A stretch of DNA of 64,000 nucleotides from Neisseriaceae bacterium (GTDB lineage: Bacteria > Pseudomonadota > Gammaproteobacteria > Burkholderiales > Chromobacteriaceae), in contig JAIYAC010000026.1 in the NCBI GenBank assembly GCA_027489245.1, forward strand, positions 62,001 to 126,000, read 5' to 3'. The translations under genes and the position numbers were made by a program. Of the stretch, positions 21,250 to 39,841 are shown piece by piece. The notes under the pieces were generated by a model, which was not told the origin of the DNA, did not search any database, and was given only the letters and a program-made list of their open reading frames with translations. Positions within the stretch are counted from its first letter, which is position 1; every line of letters begins with the position of its first letter.

Positions 21250-22437
21250 ATGAAACCGATCTTGCCTTTGCTATTGGCGCTATGCGCCACGGCCTGCACC
21301 CAAACCCGCGCCCCGGACGCGCTGCCGCCGCTGGGGCAAGCCGACTTTGCCAGCTATCAAGCGCAAACCCGGCAATGGCTGCAGCAGCACCGCCAGTTTG
21401 TCAGCCCGGCCCTGCAAGACGAGCTGGCCTATAACAGCCCGCAGCAGTGGCGGCCAGCCGGCCCGCCACGCGGTGCCATCCTGCTGGTGCATGGGCTGGG
21501 CGATTCGCCGTATTCGTTTACCGACCTGGGGCCAGGGTTGGCCGCAGCCGGCTATCTGGTGCGCAGCGTGCTGTTGCCGGGGCACGGCAGCAAACCGGCC
21601 GACCTGATGGCCGCACGCTACGAAGACTGGCAGGCGCTGATCGCGCAGCAAACGGCGCTACTGCAGCGCGAGGGTGTGCCGGTGTACGTGGGCGGCTTTT
21701 CCACGGGTGCCAATCTGGTGATGCTGCAGGCACAGGCTGACCGCAATATTGCCGGTGTACTGCTTTTTTCGCCGGCGTTCAAATCCGATAGCAGCATAGA
21801 CTGGCTGGCACCGTGGGTGGCGCCGCTGAAGCCGTGGCTGCGCCAGCCGGATGAGGGCGTGCAGCAAACCCCGGTGCGTTACCTGAACGTGCCCACCCAC
21901 GGCTTTGGCCTGTTTTACCGCAGTAGCAGCGCCGTACTGTCTGCGCTAGCCGCCAAGCCGTACGACAAACCGGCCTTCATGGTGCTGGCCGAACACGATT
22001 CGGTCGTGGATGTCCGGCAGGCGCGCACGCTGTTCCAGCAGCGCTTTACCCACCCTGCCAGCCGGCTGGTATGGTACGGCCGCCAGGCACCGGCCAGTAG
22101 CGATGCCCGCCAGCTGTGGCAAAGCGACTACCTGCCACAGCAGCGCATCAGCCAGTTTTCGCACATGAGCGTGCTGTTCTCGCCGGCCAACCCGCTGTAC
22201 GGGCAAGACGGCAGCCTACGCATGTGCCGTAACGGCCAGGAAGATGCCGAAGTCACCGCCTGCCAGCGCGGCGCCACAGTGTGGTACAGCGACTGGGGCT
22301 ACCGCGAGCCCGGCAAGGTGCACGCCCGCCTCACCTTCAACCCCTACTTCGACTGGCAGCTGGGCGTGGCGCGCAGCGTACTGCAGGCAGCCGCGCCAGC
22401 CACTCAGGCGGTGGCCGCTTCGTCCAGCAGCCACTGA
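21250..22437 (+). CDS. Alpha/beta hydrolase, probable lipoprotein
   Basis: Protein of 395 residues. The N-terminus (MKPILPLLLALCATACTQ) fits a lipoprotein signal with C16 as the lipidated residue, although the lipobox is weak. The hydrolase core shows LVHGLGDSPYSF (oxyanion region), the nucleophile elbow GGFSTG with S150, the acid in AEHDSVVD and a histidine in QFSHMSVLFSP. This suggests an esterase or lysophospholipase-like enzyme in the periplasm. The substrate is unknown. Its 3' end overlaps the convergent LysR gene by 34 bases. Confidence 0.87.
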   Translation: MKPILPLLLALCATACTQTRAPDALPPLGQADFASYQAQTRQWLQQHRQFVSPALQDELAYNSPQQWRPAGPPRGAILLVHGLGDSPYSFTDLGPGLAAAGYLVRSVLLPGHGSKPADLMAARYEDWQALIAQQTALLQREGVPVYVGGFSTGANLVMLQAQADRNIAGVLLFSPAFKSDSSIDWLAPWVAPLKPWLRQPDEGVQQTPVRYLNVPTHGFGLFYRSSSAVLSALAAKPYDKPAFMVLAEHDSVVDVRQARTLFQQRFTHPASRLVWYGRQAPASSDARQLWQSDYLPQQRISQFSHMSVLFSPANPLYGQDGSLRMCRNGQEDAEVTACQRGATVWYSDWGYREPGKVHARLTFNPYFDWQLGVARSVLQAAAPATQAVAASSSSH

Positions 22438-23294
22438 TACAGCTGGCGCACCAGCGGCGCCCGCGTATCACCGGCTGCGCGGGCTATCCACCACTGCTGC
22501 CCGGGCTGCGCCGGGTAGCCCGCCACCGCCTGTAGCCTGCCGGTGGCCATGGCGTCGGCCACTTGCCAGCGCGACAGCCACGCCACGCCCAGGCTGCGCT
22601 CGGCTGCTTCTTGCAGCAGGCGGGCATCGTCCACAATCAGGCGGCGGCGAAAGCCCGCCAGCGCGGCGGGTAGCGCCTCGTGCCCGCTGCCTATCGTTAG
22701 TGCACGCTCCAGGCACAGCAGGCCGGCATGGGCCGCGTGCTCGGCCAGCGGCAACTGCGCCAGCCGCTGCGCCAGCGCCGGGCTGGCCACCAGTAGCTGC
22801 TCGTCCTGCAGCCAGGGCTGCTCCAGCACACCCGGCTGCTGCAGTGGCCGCGCCACGATATTGATATCCACATCCAGCTCGTCTACGTAGCGTGCGCTTT
22901 CGTCGGTAGACAGCAGCGGGCACACGCCGGGCAGCGCCTGCTGCAATGCGGCCAACCTGGGCAGTAACCAGCCCTGCTGCAACGGTGCCGGGCACACCAG
23001 CACCACCAGCCCCGGGTCCAGATAGGTGGCGATACGCCCCAGCCCGCTTTTTAGCGCGTCCAGCGACAGCTGCACGCTGCGCAGCAGCACCTCGCCCGCC
23101 ACCGTCAGCTCCACCCCGCGCCCTACCCGGCTAAACAGTGGCTGGCCAAGCTGTTCTTCCAGCTGCTGTATCTGGTGGCTAATGGCGGACTGCGACAGGT
23201 ACAGCTCTTCGGCCGCACGGGAAAAACTGCCCAGCCTGGCGGCAGCCTCGAAGCCGCTGAGCAGGCGCAACGATGGAATACGTGGTTTGTTCAT
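22404..23294 (-). CDS. LysR-family transcriptional regulator
   Basis: Protein of 296 residues. The N-terminal winged helix-turn-helix (LRLLSGFEAAARLGSFSRAAEELYLSQSAISHQIQQLEEQLG) is of the GcvA-like type, followed by the effector-binding domain. The ATG at 23294 (MNKPRIPSLRLL) is chosen over one 27 bases upstream. It is divergent from the agmatine deiminase gene, with 94 bases between, the classic LysR layout. It is the best candidate regulator of the agmatine cluster; agmatine or a product may be the effector (inference). Confidence 0.9.
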   Translation of the reverse strand: MNKPRIPSLRLLSGFEAAARLGSFSRAAEELYLSQSAISHQIQQLEEQLGQPLFSRVGRGVELTVAGEVLLRSVQLSLDALKSGLGRIATYLDPGLVVLVCPAPLQQGWLLPRLAALQQALPGVCPLLSTDESARYVDELDVDINIVARPLQQPGVLEQPWLQDEQLLVASPALAQRLAQLPLAEHAAHAGLLCLERALTIGSGHEALPAALAGFRRRLIVDDARLLQEAAERSLGVAWLSRWQVADAMATGRLQAVAGYPAQPGQQWWIARAAGDTRAPLVRQLYQWLLDEAATA

Positions 23295-23388
23295 ATGAGA
23301 AAACCTGGTCAATACCCGCAAAAAACATCAATTTTTCTAAAGTCATGCTAGCGCCACAATACGTCCATCACAACAGGAGGCAAAGCAG

Positions 23389-24420
23389 ATGGGACGTTTT
23401 GATGCACGCGTACAGGGCTACCGCATGCCCGCCGAATGGGAAACCCAGCACACCACCTGGCTAGGCTGGCCGATGCTGGCCGACCGCGAAGAATTGTGGG
23501 GCGAGCACTACGCCCAGGTGGTGGCCGAGTTTGCGCTGACCGCCCGCACCCTTGCCCGCTACCAGCGCTGTGTGGTGACTGCGCATCACAGCCTGGCGGC
23601 GCAGGCGCGCGAGCTATGCGGCCCCACGGTGACGGTGCTGCCGGTGGCCGCCGAAGACAACTGGGTGCGCGACTGCGGACCGATTTTCTTGCAAGGCCAG
23701 GGCGGACAGTTGGCCGCAGCGGCGTTCCGCTTTAACGCCTGGGGCAACAAGTACCAGCCCTACGACGGCTGCCAGCAGCTGGCCCAAGACATCGCCCGCC
23801 ACGCCGGCGCCACGCTGTTCAACAGCGACATGGTGCTGGAAGGCGGCTCGTTCTACGTGGATGGCCAGGGCACGCTGCTCACCACCGAAAGCTGCCTGCT
23901 GCACCCCAACCGCAACCCCGGTATGAGCCGCGCCGAGATCGAAGAAGAGCTGGGCCGCATGCTGGGCATCCGCAAGGTGATCTGGCTGCCGGGCAACCCG
24001 CTGGAGGTAGAAACCAACGGCCATGTAGACGGCATCGCCTCGTTCATCGCGCCAGGCCAGGTGCTGTGCCAGGGCGCCACGCCAGACCAGGGCGACTACT
24101 ACTACGTGCTACGCGAAAACCGCCGCGCACTGGCGCTGGCCACCGACGCCCGCGGCCGCCCGTTCAGCTTTCTGGATTTACCGTCGCCGCAGGTAACCCA
24201 GCGCTACGGCAGCGAACGCTATTGCGACTGCTACGCCAACTACATCCTGGTGAACGGCGCAGTGATCAGCACCGCCTTTGGCGTGGCCGAAGATGCCGCC
24301 GCACGCGAGGTGTTTGCCCAGGCCTTCCCGGGGCGCGAAGTCGTGCTGCTGCCGGTAACCGCCATCTCCATCGGCGGCGGCAGCCTGCACTGCTCCACCC
24401 AGCAACAACCGGCCGTCTAA
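23389..24420 (+). CDS. aguA: Agmatine deiminase, cytoplasmic
   Basis: Protein of 343 residues that hydrolyses agmatine to N-carbamoylputrescine and ammonia. The guanidine-modifying fold is shown by AEDNWVRDCGPIF (substrate acid), EGGSFYVDGQGTLLTTESC, NGHVDGIASF (catalytic His) and GGGSLHCSTQQQP with the nucleophile C335. No signal peptide. AGGAGG lies upstream of the ATG. It is followed 36 bases later by aguB, the enzyme of the next step, so the pair gives putrescine from agmatine. Confidence 0.95.
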   Translation: MGRFDARVQGYRMPAEWETQHTTWLGWPMLADREELWGEHYAQVVAEFALTARTLARYQRCVVTAHHSLAAQARELCGPTVTVLPVAAEDNWVRDCGPIFLQGQGGQLAAAAFRFNAWGNKYQPYDGCQQLAQDIARHAGATLFNSDMVLEGGSFYVDGQGTLLTTESCLLHPNRNPGMSRAEIEEELGRMLGIRKVIWLPGNPLEVETNGHVDGIASFIAPGQVLCQGATPDQGDYYYVLRENRRALALATDARGRPFSFLDLPSPQVTQRYGSERYCDCYANYILVNGAVISTAFGVAEDAAAREVFAQAFPGREVVLLPVTAISIGGGSLHCSTQQQPAV

Positions 24421-24456
24421 GCCTGGCCACACACAACACACACCAAGGAGAACACC

Positions 24457-25380
24457 ATGAGCCGAACCCTTACCGTTGCCGCCGTCCAGATGGCCTCCGG
24501 CAGCTGGCAAGCCGAAGACAATATGGACCGCGCCGAACGGCTGATCCGCCAGGCCGCCGCCGCCGGCGCGCAGCTGGTGCTGTGCCCCGAGCTATTCATG
24601 CTGCCCTACTTCTGCATCGACCAGCACGTGGATCACCTGCAGCTGGCGCAGCCGTTTGCAGGCCACCCCGGCATTGCCCGCTTTGCCCGCCTGGCCGGCG
24701 AGCTGGGTGTGGTCATCCCCATCGGCTTTTTCGAGCGCGCCGGTAATGCCGCCTACAACAGCATTGCCGTGGCCGATAGCGACGGCCGCGTGCTGGGCGT
24801 ATACCGCAAGACGCACATTCCGGACGGGCCGGGCTACACCGAAAAGTTCTACTTCACCCCTGGCGACACCGGCTTCAAGGTGTGGGACACCCGCGTGGGC
24901 AAAATCGGCATCGGCATCTGCTGGGACCAGTGGTACCCGGAAACCGCACGCAGCCTGGCGCTGATGGGAGCCGAGGTACTGTGCTTCCCCACCATTATCG
25001 GTAGCGAGCCGTTCAGCGCCGACTACGACTCGGCTGGCCACTGGCAGCGCACCATGCAGGGCCACGCTGCGGCCAACATGCTGCCGGTAGTGGCCGCCAA
25101 CCGCATCGGCAGCGAAACCGGCATGGGCAACGGCAACACGCGCCAGCAGGGCCTGACCGCCACCTTCTACGGCAGCAGCTTCATTGCCGACCACACCGGC
25201 AGCAAGGTGCAGGAAGCTGGCCGCAGCGAAGAAACCCTCCTGCTGCACACCTTCGACCTGGACGCCATCCGCGACGAGCGCCAGAGCTGGGGCTTCTTCC
25301 GCGACCGCCGCCCCGAGATGTACCGCACGCTGCTCACCAGCGACGGTGCGGCATCCTGCTACCAGGGAGCCCGCGCATGA
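24457..25380 (+). CDS. aguB: N-carbamoylputrescine amidase
   Basis: Nitrilase-family enzyme of 307 residues that releases putrescine, CO2 and ammonia from N-carbamoylputrescine. The catalytic triad is E45 (CPELFMLPYF), K118 (YRKTHIPDGPGY) and C155 (IGICWDQWYPE). Length and motifs match AguB closely. It follows aguA by 36 bases with AAGGAG before the ATG. Its stop overlaps the start of the binding-protein gene (ATGA), so all three are likely one operon. Confidence 0.95.
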   Translation: MSRTLTVAAVQMASGSWQAEDNMDRAERLIRQAAAAGAQLVLCPELFMLPYFCIDQHVDHLQLAQPFAGHPGIARFARLAGELGVVIPIGFFERAGNAAYNSIAVADSDGRVLGVYRKTHIPDGPGYTEKFYFTPGDTGFKVWDTRVGKIGIGICWDQWYPETARSLALMGAEVLCFPTIIGSEPFSADYDSAGHWQRTMQGHAAANMLPVVAANRIGSETGMGNGNTRQQGLTATFYGSSFIADHTGSKVQEAGRSEETLLLHTFDLDAIRDERQSWGFFRDRRPEMYRTLLTSDGAASCYQGARA

Positions 25381-26471
25381 ACCCGCGCCGCAGCCTGTTA
25401 GCCGCCGCGCTGGCACTGGCCTGTGCCAGCAGCCACGCCGCCGAAGAGAAAATCCTCTACCTGTTCAACTGGGCCGACTACTTTGCCCCCGACACCCTCA
25501 GCCAGTTTGAAAAGGAAACCGGCATCAAGGTGCGGCTGGACGTGTACGACAGCGACGAAACCCTGCAGGCCAAGCTGCTTACCGGCGACAGCGGCTACGA
25601 CGTGGTATGGCCCAGCAATGACTTCATGGCCAAGCAGATCCAGGCCGGCGTATACCGCCCGCTGGATAAAAGCAAGCTGCCCAATCTGAAGCACCTGGAC
25701 CCGCGGCTGATGAACATCATCGCCCAGTCCGACCCCGGCCACCGTTACGGCGTGCCGTATATGTGGGGCACCATCGGTGTGGGCTACGACAAAGTGAAGG
25801 TGGAAAAGCTGCTGGGCAAAGTACCGGCCAACAGCATGGACCTGCTGTTCGACCCCGCCACCAGCGGCAAGTTGGCCGCAGGCGGCTGCCGCATCGGCCT
25901 GCAGGACTCGGCCAGCGCCATGCTGCCGCTGGCGCTGCGCTACATCGGCCGCGACCCGGTCAACCCCGCCAAAGCCGACTTTGACGCTGCGCTGACCAGG
26001 CTGAAAAAAGTACGCCAACACATCAGCCTGTTTGTGGCCTCGCCCAATGCCAACGAGCTGATCAGCGGCGAGCTGTGCGTGTTTGCCGGCTACTCCGGCG
26101 CCATCAACCTGGCGGCAGAAAAAGTGCGCGAGCAAGGCGGCAAGCGCAGCATCGTGTACGACATCCCCCGCATGGGCAGCCTGATGTGGTTCGACGGCAT
26201 GCTCATCCCCAAAACCGCCCGCCACCCCGACAACGCCCACGCCTTCATCAACTACATCCTGCGCCCCGACGTGGTGGCCAAGATCAGCAACGCCACCCGC
26301 TACGCCAACGCCAACCTGGGCGCGCTCAAGCTGATGGACCGCAGCCTGGTGGGCAACCCCAGCGTGTATCTGAATGACGAGCGCAAGAAAACGCTATTCC
26401 TGCAAAAAGTGCAAAGCAGCGACACCACGCGGCTGGAAGGCCGCACCTGGATGAGCTTCAAAAAGGGCTGA
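25377..26471 (+). CDS. Periplasmic polyamine-type solute-binding protein (PotD/PotF family)
   Basis: Protein of 364 residues with a Sec signal peptide (LLAAALALACASSHA, cleavage before AEE). The mature start KILYLFNWADYFAPDTLSQFEKETGIKVRLDVYDSDETL is the PotF/PotD signature, followed by YDVVWPSNDFMAKQ. It should bind putrescine, agmatine or a related amine. It overlaps aguB by four bases. No permease or ATPase genes are present in the window for it, so it must use a transporter encoded elsewhere or act as a sensor-type binder. Confidence 0.9.
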   Translation: MNPRRSLLAAALALACASSHAAEEKILYLFNWADYFAPDTLSQFEKETGIKVRLDVYDSDETLQAKLLTGDSGYDVVWPSNDFMAKQIQAGVYRPLDKSKLPNLKHLDPRLMNIIAQSDPGHRYGVPYMWGTIGVGYDKVKVEKLLGKVPANSMDLLFDPATSGKLAAGGCRIGLQDSASAMLPLALRYIGRDPVNPAKADFDAALTRLKKVRQHISLFVASPNANELISGELCVFAGYSGAINLAAEKVREQGGKRSIVYDIPRMGSLMWFDGMLIPKTARHPDNAHAFINYILRPDVVAKISNATRYANANLGALKLMDRSLVGNPSVYLNDERKKTLFLQKVQSSDTTRLEGRTWMSFKKG

Positions 26472-26492
26472 CCGCCACCTAAAGGACACACC

Positions 26493-27599
26493 ATGAACCG
26501 ACGACACTTTCTGGGCTACGGCAGCGCCAGCCTGCTCGCCAGCGCACTGGGCAGCCACGCGCTGCTGGCCAGCGCCCCCGCCCACGCGGCCAACCCCACA
26601 GGCTGGCGCATGCCGGACGAAGGCGAACCCCACGCCGCCACCTGGCTGGCGTTTGCTGCCAGCGAAGCGATCTGGGGGCGCAAGCTGCTGGCCGGCGCCC
26701 GCGACAGCCAGGCGCGCATTGCCCAGGCGATTGCCGGCTACGAAACCGTGAACATGCTGGTACGCGAGCAGGACTACGACCTGGCCTACCGCCTGTGCGG
26801 TACGGCGGCCAACCTGGTGGTAGCCCCGCTGGACGACCTGTGGCTGCGCGACAGCGGCCCGGTGTTTGTAGAAGACGCCCACGGCCAGCGCGCCGCTATC
26901 GACTTCAACTTTAACGGCTGGGGCAATAAACAAACCCACGCCAACGACGCCAAAGTCGCCGCCCGCGTGGCCGCACACAGCGGCACCCCGCTGCTGCATA
27001 CAAAGCTGGTGCTGGAAGGTGGCGGCATAGAGGTAGACGGCGAAGGCACCGCCATCATCACCGAAAGCTGCGTGCTGAACCGCAACCGCAACCCCGGCGT
27101 CAGCAAAGCCGCCTGCGAAGTGGAGCTAAAGCGCCTGCTGGGCCTGCAAAAGATCATCTGGCTACCCGGTATAGCCGGGCGTGACATTACCGACGGCCAC
27201 ACCGACTTTTACGCCCGCTTTGCCGGCCCCGGCGTGGTGGTGGTGCACAGCGATACCGACCCGGCCTCGTACGACTACGCCGTGACCCGCCGCCACCTGC
27301 AGCTGCTGAAAACCGCTACCGACGCCCGCGGCCGCAAGCTGCAGCTGATCGTGATCCCCGGTGCGCGCAGCACGCGGCCGCGCTACCGCAATGCCGACTT
27401 TGCCGCCGGCTATGTGAACTTTTATGTGTGCAACCACGCCGTGATCGCCCCGCAGTTTGGCGACGCCCGCGCCGACCGCTACTGCCGTGACGCGCTGCAG
27501 GATGCCTTCCCCAGCCGCGACGTGGTGCAGCTGGATATCGACGCCATTGCCGCCGGCGGCGGCGGCATACACTGTATTACGCAACAGCAGCCGGCCTGA
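26493..27599 (+). CDS. Tat-exported agmatine deiminase-family protein (copy 2)
   Basis: Protein of 368 residues. The N-terminus MNRRHFLGYGSASLLASALG is a twin-arginine signal (RRHFLG, then a hydrophobic stretch ending AHA). The mature part keeps the agmatine-deiminase residues: DLWLRDSGPVF, LEGGGIEVDGEGTAIITESC, TDGHTDFYARF with the His, and GGGGIHCITQQQP with C361. It therefore probably deiminates agmatine or a related guanidine in the periplasm. It starts 21 bases after the binding-protein gene and looks co-transcribed with aguAB. Confidence 0.88.
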   Translation: MNRRHFLGYGSASLLASALGSHALLASAPAHAANPTGWRMPDEGEPHAATWLAFAASEAIWGRKLLAGARDSQARIAQAIAGYETVNMLVREQDYDLAYRLCGTAANLVVAPLDDLWLRDSGPVFVEDAHGQRAAIDFNFNGWGNKQTHANDAKVAARVAAHSGTPLLHTKLVLEGGGIEVDGEGTAIITESCVLNRNRNPGVSKAACEVELKRLLGLQKIIWLPGIAGRDITDGHTDFYARFAGPGVVVVHSDTDPASYDYAVTRRHLQLLKTATDARGRKLQLIVIPGARSTRPRYRNADFAAGYVNFYVCNHAVIAPQFGDARADRYCRDALQDAFPSRDVVQLDIDAIAAGGGGIHCITQQQPA

Positions 27600-27690
27600 G
27601 TCATTCCATCCGAATTGGTTAAATCGTTGCTGCCACCTATGGTAAGAACACTGCTGCGGCCAACCCTGGCCCCAGCGAGAAAGGCACACC

Positions 27691-28776
27691 ATGTTCACAC
27701 GCAGACACTTTATGGCCTCGTCCGGCCTGGCCCTGCTGGCCACCAGCCTGGCCCAGCCTGCCCGTGCGGCCAACCCTGGCTGGCACATGCCGGATGAAGG
27801 CGAACGCCACAGCGCCACCTGGATGGCCTTTGGCCCCGGCGCCGAGGTGTGGGGGGCAGAACTGCAAGGTGGCGCGCAAGAAGCCCTGGGCCGTATCGCC
27901 CGCGCCATCGTGGCGTACGAGCCCGTCAACATGCTGGTGCGCAAGGAAGACTACGACACCGCCAGCCGCCTGTGCGGGCCCAAAGTAAAGCTGATCGTGC
28001 AGGACATAGACGACCTGTGGATGCGCGACACCGGCCCGGTATTCGTCAAGAACACCCGCGGCGTACTGGCCGGTGTGGACTTCAACTTCAACGGCTGGGG
28101 CGACAAGCAGCAGCACGACGCCGACGCCGCCGTGGCCGGTTTTGTGTGCGAACACAGCGGGGTAAGCCGGCTGGAAACCAAGCTGGTACTGGAAGGTGGC
28201 GGTATAGAAGTAGACGGCCAGGGCACGGCCATCATCACCGAAAGCTGCGTGCTGAACCCCAACCGCAACCCGGGCGTGAGCAAGGCAGCCTGTGAAGCAG
28301 AGCTGCAACGCCTGCTGGGCATCAGCAAGGTGATCTGGCTACCCGGTATTGCCGGGCGCGACATTACCGATGGCCACACCGACTTTTACGCCCGCTTTAC
28401 CCGGCCGGGTGTGGTGGTAGCCGGGCTGGATACCGACCCGCAGTCCTACGATTACGCCGTCACCCACCGCCATCTGGACATCCTGAAAAGCGCCACCGAC
28501 GCCCGTGGGCGCAAGCTGCAGGTGGTGGTGCTTCCCGGCCCTGGCGAGGTACGCCCGCGCTACCGCAATGACGACTTTGCCGCCGGCTATATCAATTTTT
28601 ACGTATGCAACGGCGCCGTGATCGCCCCGCAGTTTGGCGACACGCGCGCCGACCGCCACTGCCATGCCATCCTGCGCGAGCAGTTCCCCGGCCGCGACAT
28701 CATCCAGCTGGATATCGACGCCATCGCGGCGGGCGGCGGCGGCATACACTGCACCACACAACAGCAGCCAGCCTGA
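27691..28776 (+). CDS. Tat-exported agmatine deiminase-family protein (copy 3)
   Basis: Protein of 361 residues, closely similar to the preceding one throughout. It has its own Tat signal (MFTRRHFMASSGLALLATSLA, cleavage after ARA). Active-site features are kept: DLWMRDTGPVF, LEGGGIEVDGQGTAIITESC, TDGHTDFYARF, and C354 in GGGGIHCTTQQQP. A tandem duplication of the upstream gene is the simplest origin. The 91-base gap carries a 10-mer copy and could hold a separate promoter. A terminator follows it. Confidence 0.88.
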   Translation: MFTRRHFMASSGLALLATSLAQPARAANPGWHMPDEGERHSATWMAFGPGAEVWGAELQGGAQEALGRIARAIVAYEPVNMLVRKEDYDTASRLCGPKVKLIVQDIDDLWMRDTGPVFVKNTRGVLAGVDFNFNGWGDKQQHDADAAVAGFVCEHSGVSRLETKLVLEGGGIEVDGQGTAIITESCVLNPNRNPGVSKAACEAELQRLLGISKVIWLPGIAGRDITDGHTDFYARFTRPGVVVAGLDTDPQSYDYAVTHRHLDILKSATDARGRKLQVVVLPGPGEVRPRYRNDDFAAGYINFYVCNGAVIAPQFGDTRADRHCHAILREQFPGRDIIQLDIDAIAAGGGGIHCTTQQQPA

Positions 28777-28840: not shown

Positions 28841-29176
28841 ATGAGCCAACCTGACCCTGACATGAACCACGACATGCGTGACTTTCGCCAGCCCATGGTG
28901 ACCTCGCTGGGCATCATCCTGGGCTTCATGCTGAATTTTCTCGGGCAGTGGGCGATACAGGACGACGGCGAAATTGCCGTTACCACCAAGGCCGACTTTG
29001 TAGTGGCACTGGGCCTGATTGGTGCCATCGCGCTGATGCTGTGGGTGCTGTTCCGCCTGCTGAACAACCGCTACCCGCTGCAACAGGCCGGCCACTACTA
29101 CCACACCACCTTCCGCGCCTACATGCTGGCCATTCTGCTGGCCTTTGGCGCGGTGGCGGCGGCCTTGTTCGTGTAA
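28841..29176 (+). CDS. Small membrane protein of unknown function (three helices)
   Basis: Protein of 111 residues. A short polar start (MSQPDPDMNHDMRDFRQP) is followed by three predicted membrane helices at about 19-38, 52-75 and 90-111. I do not recognise a family. GGAG precedes the ATG at 28841. It sits behind the terminator of the agmatine cluster and is convergent with the acyl-CoA ligase gene, three bases from its stop, so no functional link is implied. Confidence 0.75.
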   Translation: MSQPDPDMNHDMRDFRQPMVTSLGIILGFMLNFLGQWAIQDDGEIAVTTKADFVVALGLIGAIALMLWVLFRLLNNRYPLQQAGHYYHTTFRAYMLAILLAFGAVAAALFV

Positions 29177-31743: not shown

Positions 31744-32436
31744 CTAGCCCGCCGCCAGCCGGTAGCCCACGCCGGTTTCGGTCAGCAGGTAACGCGGCTG
31801 GGCCGGGTCTTGCTCCAGCTTTTGCCGCAGGTGGGCCATGTAGATGCGCAGGTAGTGGTTGTGCTCGATATGCGCCGGCCCCCACACCTCTTTCAGCAGC
31901 TGCCGGTGGGTCAGCACCTTGCCGCGCTGCGCGATCAGCGCCACCAGCAGGCGGTATTCCAGCTGCGTCAGGTGTAGCGGCTCGCCGGCGCGGCTAACGC
32001 TGCGCAGGCCCAGGTCGATCACCACGTCGCCCAGGGTGACTTTGTCGCTTTCGCTGGCGGCGCTGCTGCCACGGCGGCGCAGCTGGGCGCGCACGCGGGC
32101 CTGCAGCTCACCGGTGCCAAACGGTTTGGTGAGGTAGTCGTCGGCGCCGGCATCCAGCGCGGCGATCTTGTCGCCCTCGTCCACCCGAGCCGACAGCACG
32201 ATCACCGGCACGCTGCTCCAGCTACGCAGGTCCAGCAGCAGCGCCACGCCGTCGCCGTCGGGCAGGCCCAGGTCCAGCACGATCAGATCAGGCTTGCGGG
32301 TGCCCGCCTCGATCAGGCCGCGCGCCACGCTATCCGCCTCGTATACGCGGTGGCCGTCTTCTTCCAGCGCCGCTTTCACAAAGCGGCGGATCACTGCCTC
32401 GTCTTCAATGACCAGAATGCTGGGGGCGTTGTTCAC
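31744..32436 (-). CDS. kdpE: Response regulator KdpE
   Basis: OmpR-type response regulator of 230 residues that activates kdpFABC at low potassium. The receiver domain has the acidic pair ED (11-12 region), the phosphorylated D55 (IVLDLGLPDGDG) and K in YLTKPFG. The C-terminal winged helix includes LTHRQLLKEVWG and HYLRIYMAHLRQKLE. Start codon is GTG at 32436, overlapping the kdpD stop (GTGA), so it is coupled to the sensor gene. A matching operator lies upstream of the structural genes at 39918-39938. Confidence 0.96.
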   Translation of the reverse strand: MNNAPSILVIEDEAVIRRFVKAALEEDGHRVYEADSVARGLIEAGTRKPDLIVLDLGLPDGDGVALLLDLRSWSSVPVIVLSARVDEGDKIAALDAGADDYLTKPFGTGELQARVRAQLRRRGSSAASESDKVTLGDVVIDLGLRSVSRAGEPLHLTQLEYRLLVALIAQRGKVLTHRQLLKEVWGPAHIEHNHYLRIYMAHLRQKLEQDPAQPRYLLTETGVGYRLAAG

Positions 32437-35078
32437 TGCAGGTTCTCCGGGTCGAAATCCAGCGCGGGCTGGGGGGCCAGCGGCAGGGTAAGGGTAAAGC
32501 AGGCACCACCGGCCGGCAGGTTGGCCGCAGTGATGCGCCCGCCGTGCACGTCGGCAATGGTGCGGCAGATGGCCAGGCCCAGGCCCACGCCGCTGATGGC
32601 CGACTCGCGCTCGCCACGGGTAAAGGCGGTAAACAGCGTGTCGGGGTCGCCCGGCGGCAGGCCGCGCCCCTGGTCGGCCACGCTCAGCACAATGTGCTGC
32701 GCGCTGGCCGTGGCCGTAAGGGTAATGATGCTGCCGGCGGGGCTGTATTTGAGCGCATTTTCCAGCAGGTTGACCAGCAGCCTTTCCAGCAGGATGGGGT
32801 CGGCGTACAGCATGGGGCAGCTCAGTGGCGCGTCTACCTGCAGGCGGTGGCTGGCGGTGGCGCTGCCCAGCGCGGCGATGGCGCTGCCGAACAGCTCTTG
32901 CGGCGGCAGCCAGTCGCGGCGCAGCGTCACGCCGCCGGCCTGCAGCCTGGCCATTTCCAGCAGGTTGGTCACCAGGCGCGAGATACGCTGGCTTTGCGCC
33001 TGCAGTGTGGCCGCCTGCGCGGCGTGCGGCGACGCCTCGCGCGCCAACTGGCGCTGCAGCGTTTCGGCCTGGCCGGTGAGCGCGGTGAGCGGCGTGCGCA
33101 GGTCGTGCGACAACGCGGCCAACAGCGAGTGGCGCAGGCGTTCCGATTCCATGGCCACCAGCGTTTGCTGCGCCACGGCAATGTAATGCAGCCGCTCCAG
33201 CGTTTGCGCCGCCAGCGCCGCTACCGCCTCGGCCAGGCGGCGGTTGTCCGGCTCGCCCAGCATGGCCGGCTCGGCCACGCGCAGCACCAGCACGCCACGG
33301 GTGCGCATCGGTGCTTTTAGCGGCAGGTACAGGCACGGCGCCTGCGGCAAGGTGTGGGTGGCGATGCCGGCCGGCGCGGCGTGATCGTAGCACCAGCGCA
33401 CGATGGCGGCGTCTTCGTCCAGCGCGTCGCCAGGCTGCGGCTGCAGCACGCCGTCTTCGTCGTCCGGCGGCAGCCACAGCCGCACATTGGCGCCCAGGCT
33501 GGCGTGCAAAAAGCGCTGGCTGATCTCGCCCACTTGCTCCGGCATCAAGGCCACGCCCAGCTCGCGCGCCATCTCGTACAAGGTGCGGGTATGCGCCTCG
33601 CGCTGGCGCGCCTGCGCGGCGCTGTGGCGCTGGCTGGCCACCAGCTGGCCGGCGACCAGGCCCACGATCAGCATCACCACAAAGGTAATCAGGTACTGCA
33701 CGTCGGACACCGCAAACGAAAAATGCGGCTGGACAAAGAAAAAGTCGAACAGTGCCACCGAAAGCACTGCGCTAAGCGCCGCCGGGCCACGGCCGTAGCG
33801 CACCGCCACCCACAGCACGCCCAGCAGGTAGAACATCACCAGGTTGGTGGGCTCCAGCACACCGTGCAGCGGGCTGGCCAGCACGGTGATGGCCACGCAC
33901 AGCAGGCTGGCCGCCAGCCAGCCCTGGCGTGATAGCTGCCATTGCGGCAACGGCAGCCAGCGTCGCGCGATGGCAGCCGGTGCCTGGCCGGACAGCAGCA
34001 GCAGGTCGAGGTCGCCTGCGTGCTGCTGCAGGGCGCGCTGCAGGCGCGGCCGTACCTGCGGCGCGGCCATGGCCAGCAGCGACAGGTTGTGGCGGCGGGC
34101 GTAGTCCACCAGCAGGCGGGGGGTGGACTGGCCGCTGAGCACCAGTGTGGTGGCGCCCTGCTCGGCCGCCTGCTGCAAGGCAGCCAGCGCGGCAGCGCGC
34201 TGGGCGCCGCTGGTGTGGCCATCGTCTACCCATACCGCGTGCCAGGCGGCACCCAGCTGCCGTGCCAGGCGCAGGCACTGGCGCACGCTGTCAGCACCAA
34301 AGCGGCCATCCACCAGCAGTAGCAGGCCGTGGCGGGTGGCCCATACCGGCGCCGCCTGCTGCGTGGCGCGCTGCGCTTTCATCTGGCCGTCTACCCGGTC
34401 GGCCATACGCCGCAGCGCCAGCTCGCGCAGCGCGATGAGGTTGCCTTTGCGAAAGAAGTTGGCCGCAGCGCGCTCGGCCACCTCGGGCAGGTAGACCTTG
34501 CCGGCGGCCAGGCGCTGCAGCAGGTCGTCCGGCGGCAGGTCTACCAGCCGTACTTCGTCGGCCTGGTCGAACACGTGGTCGGGCACGGTTTCGGCCACCT
34601 CCACGCCGGTCACCCGGCTGACGATGTCGCGCAGGCTGTACAGGTGCTGCACGTTCATGGCGCTGTACACGTCGATGCCGCTGGCCAGCAGCTCTTCCAC
34701 GTCTTGCCAGCGTTTGGGGTGGCGGCTGCCGGCGGCGTTGCTGTGCGGCAGCTCGTCTACCACCACCAGCGCCGGGCGGCGCGCCAGGATGGCGTCGATG
34801 TCCAGCGCGGCCACGGCCTTGCTGCGGTGGTCCAGCTGGCGGCGCGGCAGCAGCGCCAGGCCGTGCAGCATGGCTTCGGTATCGGCGCGGCCGTGGGTAT
34901 CCACCCAGCCCACCAGCACGTCCAGGCCCTGGGCGCGTTTTTCCTGTGCCTCGGCCAGCATGGCGTAGGTTTTGCCCACGCCGGGGGCGGCGCCGAAAAA
35001 CAGCTTCAGCCGGCCACGCGGGCGCGGCAGGCTGGCGAGCAGGGCGTCGGGGTCGGGGCGGCGGTCTGGGTCGGTCAT
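32433..35078 (-). CDS. kdpD: Sensor histidine kinase KdpD
   Basis: Protein of 881 residues in the standard order: N-terminal KdpD domain with a Walker A motif (GAAPGVGKT at 29-37), USP-like domain, four membrane helices (DUF4118 region, around residues 395-490), GAF-like segment, then the kinase with LSHDLRTPLTALTG (phospho-acceptor His), NLLENALKYSP and DQGRGLPPGD. It senses potassium limitation or osmotic stress and phosphorylates KdpE. It is separated from kdpC by 92 bases holding the 38-bp palindrome, so regulator levels may be set apart from the pump. Confidence 0.96.
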   Translation of the reverse strand: MTDPDRRPDPDALLASLPRPRGRLKLFFGAAPGVGKTYAMLAEAQEKRAQGLDVLVGWVDTHGRADTEAMLHGLALLPRRQLDHRSKAVAALDIDAILARRPALVVVDELPHSNAAGSRHPKRWQDVEELLASGIDVYSAMNVQHLYSLRDIVSRVTGVEVAETVPDHVFDQADEVRLVDLPPDDLLQRLAAGKVYLPEVAERAAANFFRKGNLIALRELALRRMADRVDGQMKAQRATQQAAPVWATRHGLLLLVDGRFGADSVRQCLRLARQLGAAWHAVWVDDGHTSGAQRAAALAALQQAAEQGATTLVLSGQSTPRLLVDYARRHNLSLLAMAAPQVRPRLQRALQQHAGDLDLLLLSGQAPAAIARRWLPLPQWQLSRQGWLAASLLCVAITVLASPLHGVLEPTNLVMFYLLGVLWVAVRYGRGPAALSAVLSVALFDFFFVQPHFSFAVSDVQYLITFVVMLIVGLVAGQLVASQRHSAAQARQREAHTRTLYEMARELGVALMPEQVGEISQRFLHASLGANVRLWLPPDDEDGVLQPQPGDALDEDAAIVRWCYDHAAPAGIATHTLPQAPCLYLPLKAPMRTRGVLVLRVAEPAMLGEPDNRRLAEAVAALAAQTLERLHYIAVAQQTLVAMESERLRHSLLAALSHDLRTPLTALTGQAETLQRQLAREASPHAAQAATLQAQSQRISRLVTNLLEMARLQAGGVTLRRDWLPPQELFGSAIAALGSATASHRLQVDAPLSCPMLYADPILLERLLVNLLENALKYSPAGSIITLTATASAQHIVLSVADQGRGLPPGDPDTLFTAFTRGERESAISGVGLGLAICRTIADVHGGRITAANLPAGGACFTLTLPLAPQPALDFDPENLQ

Positions 35079-35813: not shown

Positions 35814-37952
35814 TTACACCAGCCCCAGCAGGGCCAGCAGCATGTCGATCAGCTTGATGCCGGCAAAAGGCAGCAGCAGGCCGCCCAGGCCGTACACCAG
35901 CAGGTTGCGGCGCAGCAGCGCCTCGGCACCCAGCGCGCGGTAGCGCACGCCTTTGAGCGCCAGCGGTATCAGCACCACGATGATCAGCGCGTTGAAGATC
36001 ACCGCCGACAGCAGGGCCGAGGCCGGGCTGGCCAGCTGCATCACGTTCAGCAAGCCCAGCTGCGGGTAGGTGCCGGCAAAGGCGGCCGGGATGATGGCAA
36101 AGTACTTGGCCACGTCGTTGGCCAGGCTGAAGGTGGTGAGCGCGCCGCGCGTCATCAGCATTTGCTTGCCGATTTCCACGACCTGGATCAGCTTGGTGGG
36201 GCTGGAGTCCAGGTCCACCATATTCGCGGCTTCGCGCGCGGCCTGGGTGCCGCTGTTCATGGCCACCGCTACGTCGGCCTGCGCCAGCGCCGGGGCGTCG
36301 TTGGTGCCGTCGCCGGTCATGGCGACCAGTTGGCCGCGCTGCTGGTAGTCGCGTATCAGCGCCAGCTTGTTTTCCGGTGTGGCCTCGGCCAGGAAGTCGT
36401 CCACGCCCGCTTCGGCGGCGATGGCGGCGGCGGTCAGGCGGTTGTCACCGGTGACCATTACCGTCTTGATGCCCATCTGGCGCAGCTGGGCAAAGCGTTC
36501 CTTGATGCCCGGTTTCACCACGTCTTTCAGCTCGACCACGCCCAGCACCTGCGCGCCCTCGGCCACCACCAGTGGCGTGCTGCCACGGCTGGCAATGCCG
36601 TCTACCTGCTGCTGTAGCGCGGCGCTAAAGCTGCCGCCCAGCTGCAGTACGTGGCGGCGAATGGCGTCGGCCGCGCCCTTGCGGATCTGGCGCTCGCCCA
36701 GGTTGACGCCGGACATGCGCGACTGCGCGGTAAACGGCACAAAGGTGGCGCCAGCGGGGATCACGCCCAGGTGCAGCGCCTGCAGCGTGCTGCGGCCCAG
36801 CAGGCTTTCGCTCTGCACGCCGTCGTGGTGGGCAGCCGGTGCGCGGGTATGCTGCTGCGCCAGCACCACGATGCTCTTGCCTTCCGGTGTGTCGTCAGCC
36901 AGCGAGGCCAGCCAGGCCGCCTCGGCCAGCGCAGCCGGGGTGGTGCCGGCAGCGGCGATAAAGGCGGAGGCCTGGCGGTTGCCAAAGGTGATGGTGCCGG
37001 TCTTGTCCAGCAGCAGCACGTCCACGTCGCCAGCGGCTTCTACCGCACGGCCGCTGGTGGCAATCACGTTGGCCGCCATCAGCCGGCTCATGCCTGCTAC
37101 GCCAATAGCCGACAGCAGGCCGCCGATGGTGGTGGGGATCAGGCACACCAGCAGCGCCAGCAGCACCGGCAGCGAGATTACCTCGCCGCTGCCGGCGGCG
37201 CCCACGCTGTATACCGAGAACGGCAGCAGCGTGACCGTCACCAGCAGGAATACCAGCGTCAGTGCCAGCAGCAGGATGGTGAGCGCAATCTCGTTGGGCG
37301 TTTTGCGGCGCTTGGCGCCTTCCACCATGGCGATCATGCGGTCGATGAAGGTTTCGCCGGGGTTCACGCTGACGCGCACCACGATCCAGTCCGACAGCAC
37401 ACGGGTGCCGCCGGTCACCGAGCTGAAATCGCCACCCGATTCGCGGATCACCGGTGCCGACTCGCCGGTAATGGCCGACTCGTCCACGCTGGCAATGCCC
37501 TCGATGATCTCGCCATCGCAGGGGATCAGGTCGGTGTGCTGCACCAGCACCACGTCGCCCTTGCGCAGGTCGCTGGCGTCCACCACGGTAAAGGCGGCGC
37601 CGTAGCGCTGCGGTGCGGCCAACCTTTTGGCGATGGTGGCTTTTTTCAGGCTCTTGAGGCTGGCGGCCTGGGCGCGGCTGCGGCCCTCGGCCAGCGCCTC
37701 GGCAAAGTTGGCAAACAGCACGGTAAACCACAGCCACACGGCAATGCTGCCGGTGAGCCAGGCCGGTGCGTCGCCCTGCCCTTGCAGCGCCATCACCCAC
37801 AGCACGCTGCACAGCACGCTGCCCAGGTACACCACGAACATCACCGGGTTTTTCAGCTGCTCGCGCAGCGCCAGCTTGCGCACGCTATCGCGCAGTGCCG
37901 GGCGTAACAGTGCCGGGTCGAACAACGGCAGGCTTGCTTTTTTGTCAGTCAT
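35814..37952 (-). CDS. kdpB: Potassium-transporting ATPase subunit KdpB
   Basis: P-type ATPase subunit of 712 residues that powers K+ import through KdpA. TGES is at 162-165, the phosphorylated aspartate is D316 in [10 protein letters not shown], and [31 protein letters not shown] forms the hinge. The 162-165 motif includes the serine whose phosphorylation inhibits the E. coli pump. It lies 13 bases after kdpA. Confidence 0.97.
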
Positions 37953-37965
37953 GTTGGTCTCCTGC

Positions 37966-39654
37966 TTAACGCGCCCAGATCATCAGGTGCTCGGCCACCG
38001 GGCCCAGCGCCAGTGCCGGCAGATAGGTCAATGCGCCCACCAGCAATACGCTGCCGACCAGCAGGCCGATGAACAGGCCGCCGTGGGTGGGCATGCTGCC
38101 GTTGGTGGTGGCCAGCGTCTTTTTGGCGGCCAGGCTGCCGGCCAGCGCCAGTACCGGCACGATGATGGCGAAGCGGCCCAGCCACATGGCGATACCCAGC
38201 AGCGCGTTGTAGTACGCGGTATTGGCAGACAGGCCGGCAAAGGCGCTGCCGTTATTGTTGGCCGCCGAGCTGAACGCGTACAACACCTCGCTAAAGCCGT
38301 GCGCGCCGGGGTTAGCCAGCCCTGCCAGGCCCGGGGGCAGCAGCACGCTGGCAGCCGTGCCAGCCAGCACCAGTGCCGGGGTGGTGAGGATGACCAGCGC
38401 CACCATTTTCATGTCGAAGGCTTCGATCTTCTTGCCCAGGTATTCCGGCGTGCGGCCCACCATCAGCCCGGCCACGAATACCGCCAGCACGGCAAACACC
38501 AGCATGCCGTACAGGCCGGAGCCCACGCCGCCAAACACCACCTCACCCAGCTGCATCAGCCACATCGGCAGCATGCCGCCCAGTGCAGTCAATGAATCGT
38601 GCATGGCGTTCACCGCGCCGCAGCTGGCTGCCGTGGTAACGGTAATGAACAGGCTGCTGGCGGCCATGCCAAAGCGCACTTCCTTGCCTTCCCAGTTGCC
38701 GCTGCTGCCGTCCACGCCCAGTGCGGCCAACAGCGGGTTGCCCTGGCTTTCGGCGGCCATCACGCCGATGGCGCAGGCGATAAAGATCACGCTCATGGCG
38801 GCGTACAGCGCCCAGCCCTGGCGGCGGTCGCCGGCCAGGCGGCCAAAGGCGTGGGTGAGCCCGGCCGGAATCAGGAAGATGGCCAGCATCTGCAGCAGGT
38901 TGGTGAGCTCGGTGGGGTTCTCGAACGGGTGCGCCGAGTTGGCATTAAAGAAGCCGCCGCCGTTGGTACCCAGCAGCTTGATGGCTTCCTGCGAGGCCAC
39001 CGGGCCCAGCGCCAGTGTCTGCGCGTGGCCGGCCAGCGCGGTGTAATCGCTATACGCGGCCAGCGTTTGCGGCACGCCCTGCTGCACGAACACCAGCGCC
39101 AGCAGCAGCGACAGCGGCAGCAGCAGGTAGACCGACACGCGCAGCACATCAGCCCAGAAGTTGCCCAGATCGGCGCTTTCGCGGCGGGTAAAACCGCGCA
39201 TCAGCGCAAACGCCACGGCAATGCCGGTGGCGGCGGACAGGAAGTTCTGCACCGCCAGGCCGGCCATCTGGGTGAAATAGCTCATGGTGCTTTCGCCGGC
39301 GTAGCCCTGCCAGTTGGTATTGGCCACGAAGCTGATGGCGGTATTGAACGCCGAGCCTGCCTCCACCGCGCCCATGCCCTGCGGGTTGAACGGCAGCACG
39401 CCTTGCAGGCGTTGCAGCGCGTACAGCAGCAGCGCGCCCAGCAGGTTGAACACCAGCACCGCCAGCGCGTACTGGCGCCAGCCCATGCCGGTATCGCGAA
39501 TACCCGCCACACGCAGCAGCGCGCTATCGAGAGTTTGCCAGCGCGCTGGCAGCTGGCCTGCGGCCAACGGTGCCAGCCAGGCGCCCATGGGCCGCACCGA
39601 CAGGGTCAGCAGCAGCATGAATAGCCCCAGCAGGCTGTAGAACTGCAGCATCAT
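37966..39654 (-). CDS. kdpA: Potassium-transporting ATPase subunit KdpA
   Basis: Channel-like subunit of 562 residues with about ten membrane helices and four selectivity-filter-type loops; [32 protein letters not shown] and [11 protein letters not shown]-like ([12 protein letters not shown]) segments are visible. It carries K+ across the inner membrane. Two tandem ATG codons lie at 39654 and 39651; the first overlaps the kdpF stop as ATGA, pointing to coupled translation. Confidence 0.97.
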
Positions 39655-39743
39655 GACAGGTCCTCCGCGTGCAGCAGGGCATGCACCAGCCAGCCCGCCA
39701 GAAGTACGGCCAGTACGGCCGCGATCAGGGTAAACAGGGTCAT
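39651..39743 (-). CDS. kdpF: KdpF, small stabilising subunit of the Kdp complex
   Basis: Single membrane helix of 30 residues ([20 protein letters not shown], then [10 protein letters not shown]). Size, hydrophobic pattern, and place directly before kdpA match KdpF, which sits in the complex like a regulatory lipid. Its start codon overlaps the stop of the 33-residue gene upstream and its stop overlaps the kdpA start, both as ATGA. Confidence 0.92.
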
Positions 39744-39841
39744 AGCGCCCCCCTGCCGGACAAGGCGTGATAAACGCGCAGCAGGCCGACAGTGCTGCCA
39801 AACAGCAGCACCAGCCCACCTAACCAGATCAGATCGTGCAT
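39740..39841 (-). CDS. 33-residue membrane peptide, first gene of the kdp operon
   Basis: Starts [20 protein letters not shown] and ends [12 protein letters not shown]: one membrane helix and a short basic tail. GAGGAAAT lies just upstream of the ATG at 39841, a strong ribosome-binding site, whereas kdpF has none of its own. The stop overlaps the kdpF start (ATGA). I infer a genuine peptide that either joins the Kdp complex or serves as a leader for coupled translation of kdpF and kdpA. It is not the usual KdpF. Confidence 0.75.

Follow-up and report, generated by a model that had tools for sequence, protein, structure and literature searches.

A predicted agu2ABCA'-type operon with two putatively Tat-exported deiminases in a Vogesella-like bacterium

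Why should one gene cluster encode three deiminases of the agmatine deiminase family, and could two of them act outside the cytoplasm? The question is raised by a cluster in the window, by which we mean the whole stretch of 64,000 nucleotides that was analysed. The original prediction described a cytoplasmic aguA-aguB pair followed by a polyamine-type binding protein and two deiminases with RR-motif signals, and read this arrangement as an uncommon periplasmic branch of agmatine catabolism. The genes concerned are the following:

22404..23321, minus strand: LysR-type regulator, divergent from the operon (PF00126/PF03466).
23389..24420, plus strand: aguA, predicted cytoplasmic agmatine deiminase (PF04371), with an AGGAGG ribosome site and Glu at the amine-anchor position.
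24457..25380, plus strand: aguB, predicted N-carbamoylputrescine amidase (TIGR03381).
25377..26471, plus strand: aguC-like periplasmic binding protein of PotF type, with a 4-base overlap with aguB and Ala at the position of PotF Asp247.
26493..27599, plus strand: X1, predicted exported PF04371 deiminase, with a Tat signal; the amine-anchor residue is Ile.
27691..28776, plus strand: X2, predicted exported PF04371 deiminase, with a Tat signal, Ile at the amine-anchor position and a model that matches agmatine deiminases at Z 42.

The three deiminase paralogues are present as open reading frames with exactly the predicted limits, all on the plus strand and all matching the PF04371 profile (E 6.5e-102 to 3.8e-110). 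X1 and X2 share 68% identity, and their identity to the window AguA is 40-41%; all three score below the TIGR03380 equivalog cut-off of 381.8 bits (270 and 286 for X1 and X2, 283 for AguA). As predicted, the first two genes are a deiminase without signal and an amidase, the latter above the TIGR03381 cut-off (462 bits against 410), and the next product is PotF-like (E 4e-99; 332 bits, under the model's cut-off of 636). The gaps from aguA through aguB, the binding protein and X1 to X2 measure 36, -4, 21 and 91 bases, and purine-rich ribosome sites precede aguA, X1 and X2, while promoter and terminator scans of the operon gave nothing above shuffles. The divergent LysR-type protein may regulate the operon. 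The source genome (3.5 Mb in 26 contigs, 88% complete, Vogesella-like) encodes TatC, SpeA and two potA-type ATPases above cut-off, and a search of it at this completeness found no PF04371 genes beyond AguA, X1 and X2.

An operon of this kind, agu2ABCA' of Pseudomonas aeruginosa PA14, was reportedly described by Williams in 2010. PMC4287709, PMC4211729 and PMC4784309 also cite it, the first of these stating that it has little impact on agmatine levels, and according to PMC6085387 its product PA14_48450 (Agu2A') belongs to a set of eight Tat substrates identified by experiment. Export of a deiminase from an agu operon was therefore already known, which corrects the original statement that known agmatine deiminases are cytoplasmic. 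In a P. aeruginosa plasmid record the genes are annotated in the order LysR (minus strand), A, B, C and A', and A' contains the PA14_48450 signal sequence. The window operon has the same order, namely divergent LysR, cytoplasmic deiminase, amidase, PotF-like protein and a terminal deiminase with a Tat signal, a signal that both X1 and X2 bear when read by eye. Identities to the P. aeruginosa proteins are 43% for AguA, 61% for AguB, 40% for the binding protein, 36% for LysR, and 51% (X1) and 52% (X2) for A'. The two operons differ in that the window has two exported copies against one, in that the amine-anchor position holds Glu in the window AguA and Met in Agu2A, and in that the P. aeruginosa binding protein keeps Asp247 where the window's has Ala. 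By gene order and similarity the window cluster is, in all appearance, a diverged relative of agu2ABCA' with an extra exported copy.

The signals of X1, X2 and AguA were read by eye. X1 begins MNRRHFLGYGS... and X2 begins MFTRRHFMASS..., with the same RRHF Tat motif as Agu2A', and in both a hydrophobic stretch and an Ala-x-Ala-type site come after the twin arginines, in line with the two RR-motif signals of the original prediction. A loose pattern recognises a twin-arginine motif near the start of 111 of the 112 exported-clade genes in the 80 best loci; a scripted signal classifier missed clear Tat signals, and four cases (L228_1279, L097, L079 and L055) were reassigned by eye. Export of X1 and X2 in this organism is thus a prediction, and one could suppose that the signals are non-functional and that both proteins are extra cytoplasmic deiminases. 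We regard this as extremely improbable, however, given that the motif is conserved throughout the exported clade, that a sister group bears lipoprotein boxes and that export of Agu2A' has been reported (PMC6085387). In a Frankia paper the localisation column is blank for agmatine deiminase (PMC9956245).

The AlphaFold2 model of X2 (16 rows, mean pLDDT 82, low in the signal region) is the PF04371 pentein fold, and the active-site Asp/His/Asp/Cys set is kept in all three window deiminases, which bears out the original statement on the catalytic Cys and His. Compared with agmatine deiminases the model gives Z scores of 40-42 over 330-334 residues (41.9 with 3h7c, 3h7k and 2jer). Fold, catalytic residues and tunnel are common to the exported forms and AguA-type agmatine deiminases (TIGR03380; PDB 2jer, 3h7c, 6nib), from which the exported forms differ by the Tat signal and the Ile at the amine anchor. 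The peptidyl-arginine deiminase PPAD is also an exported enzyme. X1 and X2 could accordingly be imagined as PPAD-like enzymes acting on surface or periplasmic peptides, the more so since the fold is the same and the Pfam family is named after peptidyl-arginine deiminase. However, X2 is nearer to agmatine deiminase than to PPAD in both sequence and structure: a phmmer search with X2 gave no PPAD match at E 0.001 while agmatine deiminases matched at 7e-67, the structural Z for PPAD is 31-32, and the tunnel tryptophans Trp91 and Trp125 are kept in 119 of 119 exported-clade proteins. We consider a peptide substrate very unlikely.

The substrate pocket does differ. In the Medicago enzyme (MtAIH) Asp220 and Ala360 contact the terminal amine of agmatine directly and Asp89 through water, as given in PMC6447857, which also notes that amine recognition differs between plant and bacterial enzymes. 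In MtAIH numbering, we call the residue four before the catalytic His the amine anchor. We counted residues in the exported clade, here the proteins at least 54% identical to X1 or X2 (n=119), and in close AguA relatives (n=22), after dropping two fragments of one broken aguA and tabulating 17 more distant proteins apart. The anchor is Ile in 119 of 119 exported-clade proteins, X1 and X2 included, and Glu in the window AguA and in all 22 relatives; position 218 is Arg or Lys in 106 of the 119 and Glu in 22 of 22 AguA. Asp89, Trp91, Asp94, Trp125, His224, Asp226, Gly361 and Cys366 are invariant in both groups. X1 and X2 thus lack the amine-binding acid that MtAIH has as Asp220, which bacterial enzymes may not need for agmatine.

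A wider sample covered 398 Pseudomonadota genomes, 129 of them with PF04371, and gave 115 proteins from 30 loci and 80 regions, mostly the top ones among the matches listed. Its ten Tat proteins (nine recognised by script, one by eye) all have Ile, while the 105 non-Tat proteins have Glu (46), Asp (34), His (18), Met (5), Gln (1) or a gap (1) at the anchor, and in none of them is it Ile or Val. Over the whole set of 286 proteins without duplicates, read from the alignment column, we observed a new correlation: all 141 exported proteins have Ile (140 of them) or Val (one) as anchor, and none of the 141 non-exported ones does. These counts leave out three proteins whose N-terminus is unreadable, each with Ile, and a single non-exported one that has a gap. 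On the tree, which included three duplicate rows (window X1 and two P. aeruginosa deiminases), export and anchor residue each change only twice (sign test p 0.5, not significant), so that the anchor is a property of lineages and not a repeated convergence. His, a residue neither acidic nor aliphatic, occupies the anchor in a group of cytoplasmic deiminases from L213, L214, L216, L223, L226, L227, L229, L231, L232, L234, L235, L241, L242 and L245-L248.

The changed pocket suggests that the true substrate of X1 and X2 may not be plain agmatine, and the wording of the original prediction, "or another guanidine compound", was a fair caution in this respect. Taken further, the exported enzymes would be substrate-shifted deiminases for a guanidine compound with a neutral or acidic far end, such as 4-guanidinobutyrate or acylated agmatine, with agmatine a poor substrate. 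The Ile anchor, the basic residue 218 and the export correlation all speak for this, as do the Asp or Glu anchors of MtAIH and of six solved-structure relatives (E. faecalis, S. mutans, C. jejuni, P. gingivalis, A. thaliana and Chlorobium; HpAIH is outside this set) and the small effect of agu2ABCA' on agmatine levels stated in PMC4287709. However, with only two changes on the tree the anchor trait may be lineage history; Asp89, the water-mediated amine contact, is retained; the anchor of some non-exported members is not acidic either, being His in 18 and Met in 6; plant and bacterial enzymes are stated to differ in amine recognition (PMC6447857); and the operon AguB scores as an N-carbamoylputrescine amidase. 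We hold such a shift to be possible, but rather doubtful.

The binding protein bears on the same question. PMC8666671 describes Asp247 of PotF as a major carboxylate for the primary amine, one of a pair, and as conserved in at least 96% of 250 PotF-type sequences. The window protein is PotF-like from residue 22 to its end and, compared with the putrescine-binding proteins PotF and SpuD, keeps the Trp37 and Asp278 positions while Asp247 is replaced by Ala. The counts behind this are a new observation: where the binding protein is encoded between AguB and an exported gene, Ala is found in 17 of 19 cases, Glu in one (L082) and Asp in one (P. aeruginosa), against 15 Asp and one gap among 16 PotF-like proteins otherwise placed (an own-genome copy, L137, 51% identical, is left out of both counts). 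Ala would suit a ligand that has only one charged amine, for example N-carbamoylputrescine; the Asp247 of P. aeruginosa is an exception that counts against this interpretation.

From these data a pathway can be proposed. In the cytoplasm AguA would convert agmatine, which derives from arginine, to N-carbamoylputrescine and AguB would convert this to putrescine. X1 and X2 would fold before they leave the cytoplasm by the Tat route, and once in the periplasm they would turn the guanidine group of agmatine or a close analogue into a ureido product with release of ammonia. The ureido product would be taken up by means of the operon binding protein and a polyamine-type ABC transporter, which we place elsewhere in the genome because the window operon has no transporter genes, and would then be split by AguB. 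We judge it probable that the locus is an operon of agu2ABCA' type that has one more exported deiminase and works in this way. In favour are the order and similarity shared with agu2ABCA', the clade-wide twin-arginine motif, the kept catalytic and tunnel residues, the X2 fold, the Ala at Asp247, TatC, SpeA and the two potA-type ATPases, and, from the gene neighbourhoods given below, the contiguous A-B-C-X order in 15 of 80 loci and the transporter linkage in Phyllobacterium. Against it stand the lack in the exported clade of the acidic residue that binds the agmatine amine in plant AIH, the 56 of 80 loci without A, B or C, the Asp247 of P. aeruginosa, and the absence of an operon transporter and of a promoter-like site.

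If agmatine is the substrate, the binding protein would be tuned to N-carbamoylputrescine and AguB would finish the reaction, and the Ile then needs explaining. If the substrate lacks a free amine, the Ile and the basic residue 218 would make sense, while the AguB match would not be directly accounted for. For this operon we distinctly, though not overwhelmingly, prefer agmatine.

When species-level genomes were scanned with X2, 430 stretches encoding a relative were reported, so that the branch can hardly be called uncommon; the parts required for a periplasmic agmatine branch (Tat signals, binding protein, AguB) are in place, and the original interpretation as a whole is partly supported. 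The best 80 of the 430 were examined, and the neighbourhood counts therefore describe the nearest relatives only. Among these 80 loci A-B-C-X is contiguous in 15, A-B-X occurs in one, a diverged A precedes X in two, and A or B lies elsewhere in the fetched DNA in six; in the remaining 56 the fetched DNA contains no A, B or C gene, and AguB is thus often unlinked to the exported gene. In 53 of the 80 the fetched DNA, up to 15 kb per locus, includes a LysR 49-92% identical to the window's along with the exported gene. Downstream of the exported gene of one Phyllobacterium lie genes for an ABC transporter and for a binding protein. Concerning the window's genus, X2 matched in 7 of 13 genomes, but since G001 has only matches of 40% identity or less, exported forms are present in 6 of 13; three genomes (G004, G007 and G008) have three exported copies each.

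Several loci deserve separate mention. In G001 (L112:10188-11288) the place of the exported deiminase after aguA, aguB and the binding protein gene is taken by another deiminase of cytoplasmic type, with Gly at the anchor and no signal. V. aquatica has a truncated or broken X1 copy (L117:6206-7024) and an intact X2. On the plasmid NZ_LR134454.1 of the actinobacterium Tsukamurella a 64% identical homologue (L130:3890-5005) lies near the mycolic acid genes pks13 and fadD32. Eight phage records match (seven Listeria, one Enterococcus), all below 60% identity and five listed without annotation. A survey of neighbours (30 slots, one scanned twice, reading frames called by a simple greedy rule) found no common pathway in 29 distinct ORFs from 11 loci that could hint at the substrate; several had no match whatever, and a glutamine-synthetase-like gene occurs at one Chromobacterium locus.

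Of the best 80 loci, 29 have at least two exported genes. The first copy has a Tat signal ending in a lipobox (e.g. LLSAC-GGGG) in 23 of the 29 by pattern and in four more by eye (L049, L053, L055 and L104), while in L034 and L065 its N-terminus is unreadable; a further new observation is thus that 27 of 29 scanned multi-copy loci have one predicted Tat-lipoprotein. In searches of open-licence PubMed Central papers we met no description of paired lipid-anchored and soluble deiminases. A tree was made of 111 exported sequences, what was left of 146 after clustering at 93% identity. In it the tandem-pair copies with a lipobox come together in a single group separate from the soluble copies (22 rows, of which 20 bear the lipoprotein label; SH-aLRT 91, unstarred); further lipobox forms elsewhere in the tree raise the changes of this label to 6 in all. 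The lipoprotein/soluble pairing looks old. The window strain is without the lipobox copy that is present in G004, G007 and G008. This phylogeny of the exported forms, which the original prediction had asked for, places X1 with the X1 of G004 and Jeongeupia (starred, 97) and X2 with three Vogesella-group orthologues (starred, 99); being in different starred groups, X1 and X2 are not recent duplicates. Identity to the orthologues compared, per half gene, is 90-96% for X1 and 85-87% for X2. Gene conversion between X1 and X2 was considered and rejected, fourfold-site identity within four genomes (60-75%) being about that between genomes (62-79%, four pairs). Beside the A-B-C-X operon, Burkholderia and Paraburkholderia (L046, L060, L070, L081, L091, L105 and L110) encode an extra PF04371 protein that is about 500-520 residues long, contains large insertions and has an Ile anchor as well as a Tat signal with lipobox (by eye).

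A broader interpretation, which we put forward tentatively and hold to be rather improbable, is that the exported forms would be a separate, widespread periplasmic class of PF04371 whose substrate is not free agmatine, often a lipid-anchored and soluble pair near a related LysR, forming a guanidine-scavenging module that releases ammonia outside the cytoplasm. Two changes would mark it: the anchor acid replaced by an invariant aliphatic residue, and the loss of PotF Asp247 from the operon binding protein in Neisseriales and Burkholderiales. The anchor change offers a residue-level hypothesis for the little effect of agu2ABCA' on agmatine levels. Should the substrate differ from agmatine, many proteins annotated as "agmatine deiminase family protein" would be misnamed and an undescribed periplasmic guanidine pathway would exist. 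The analysis connects an operon known from biofilm work on a single Pseudomonas species with a gene set that is common among bacteria of soil and water.

Just 3' of X2, positions 28841-29176 of the plus strand encode a small protein with hydrophobic stretches, and the longer frame enclosing it has no family match. Farther on, 31744-35078 and 35814-39819 of the minus strand contain KdpE, KdpD, KdpB and KdpA-like genes, as read by eye.
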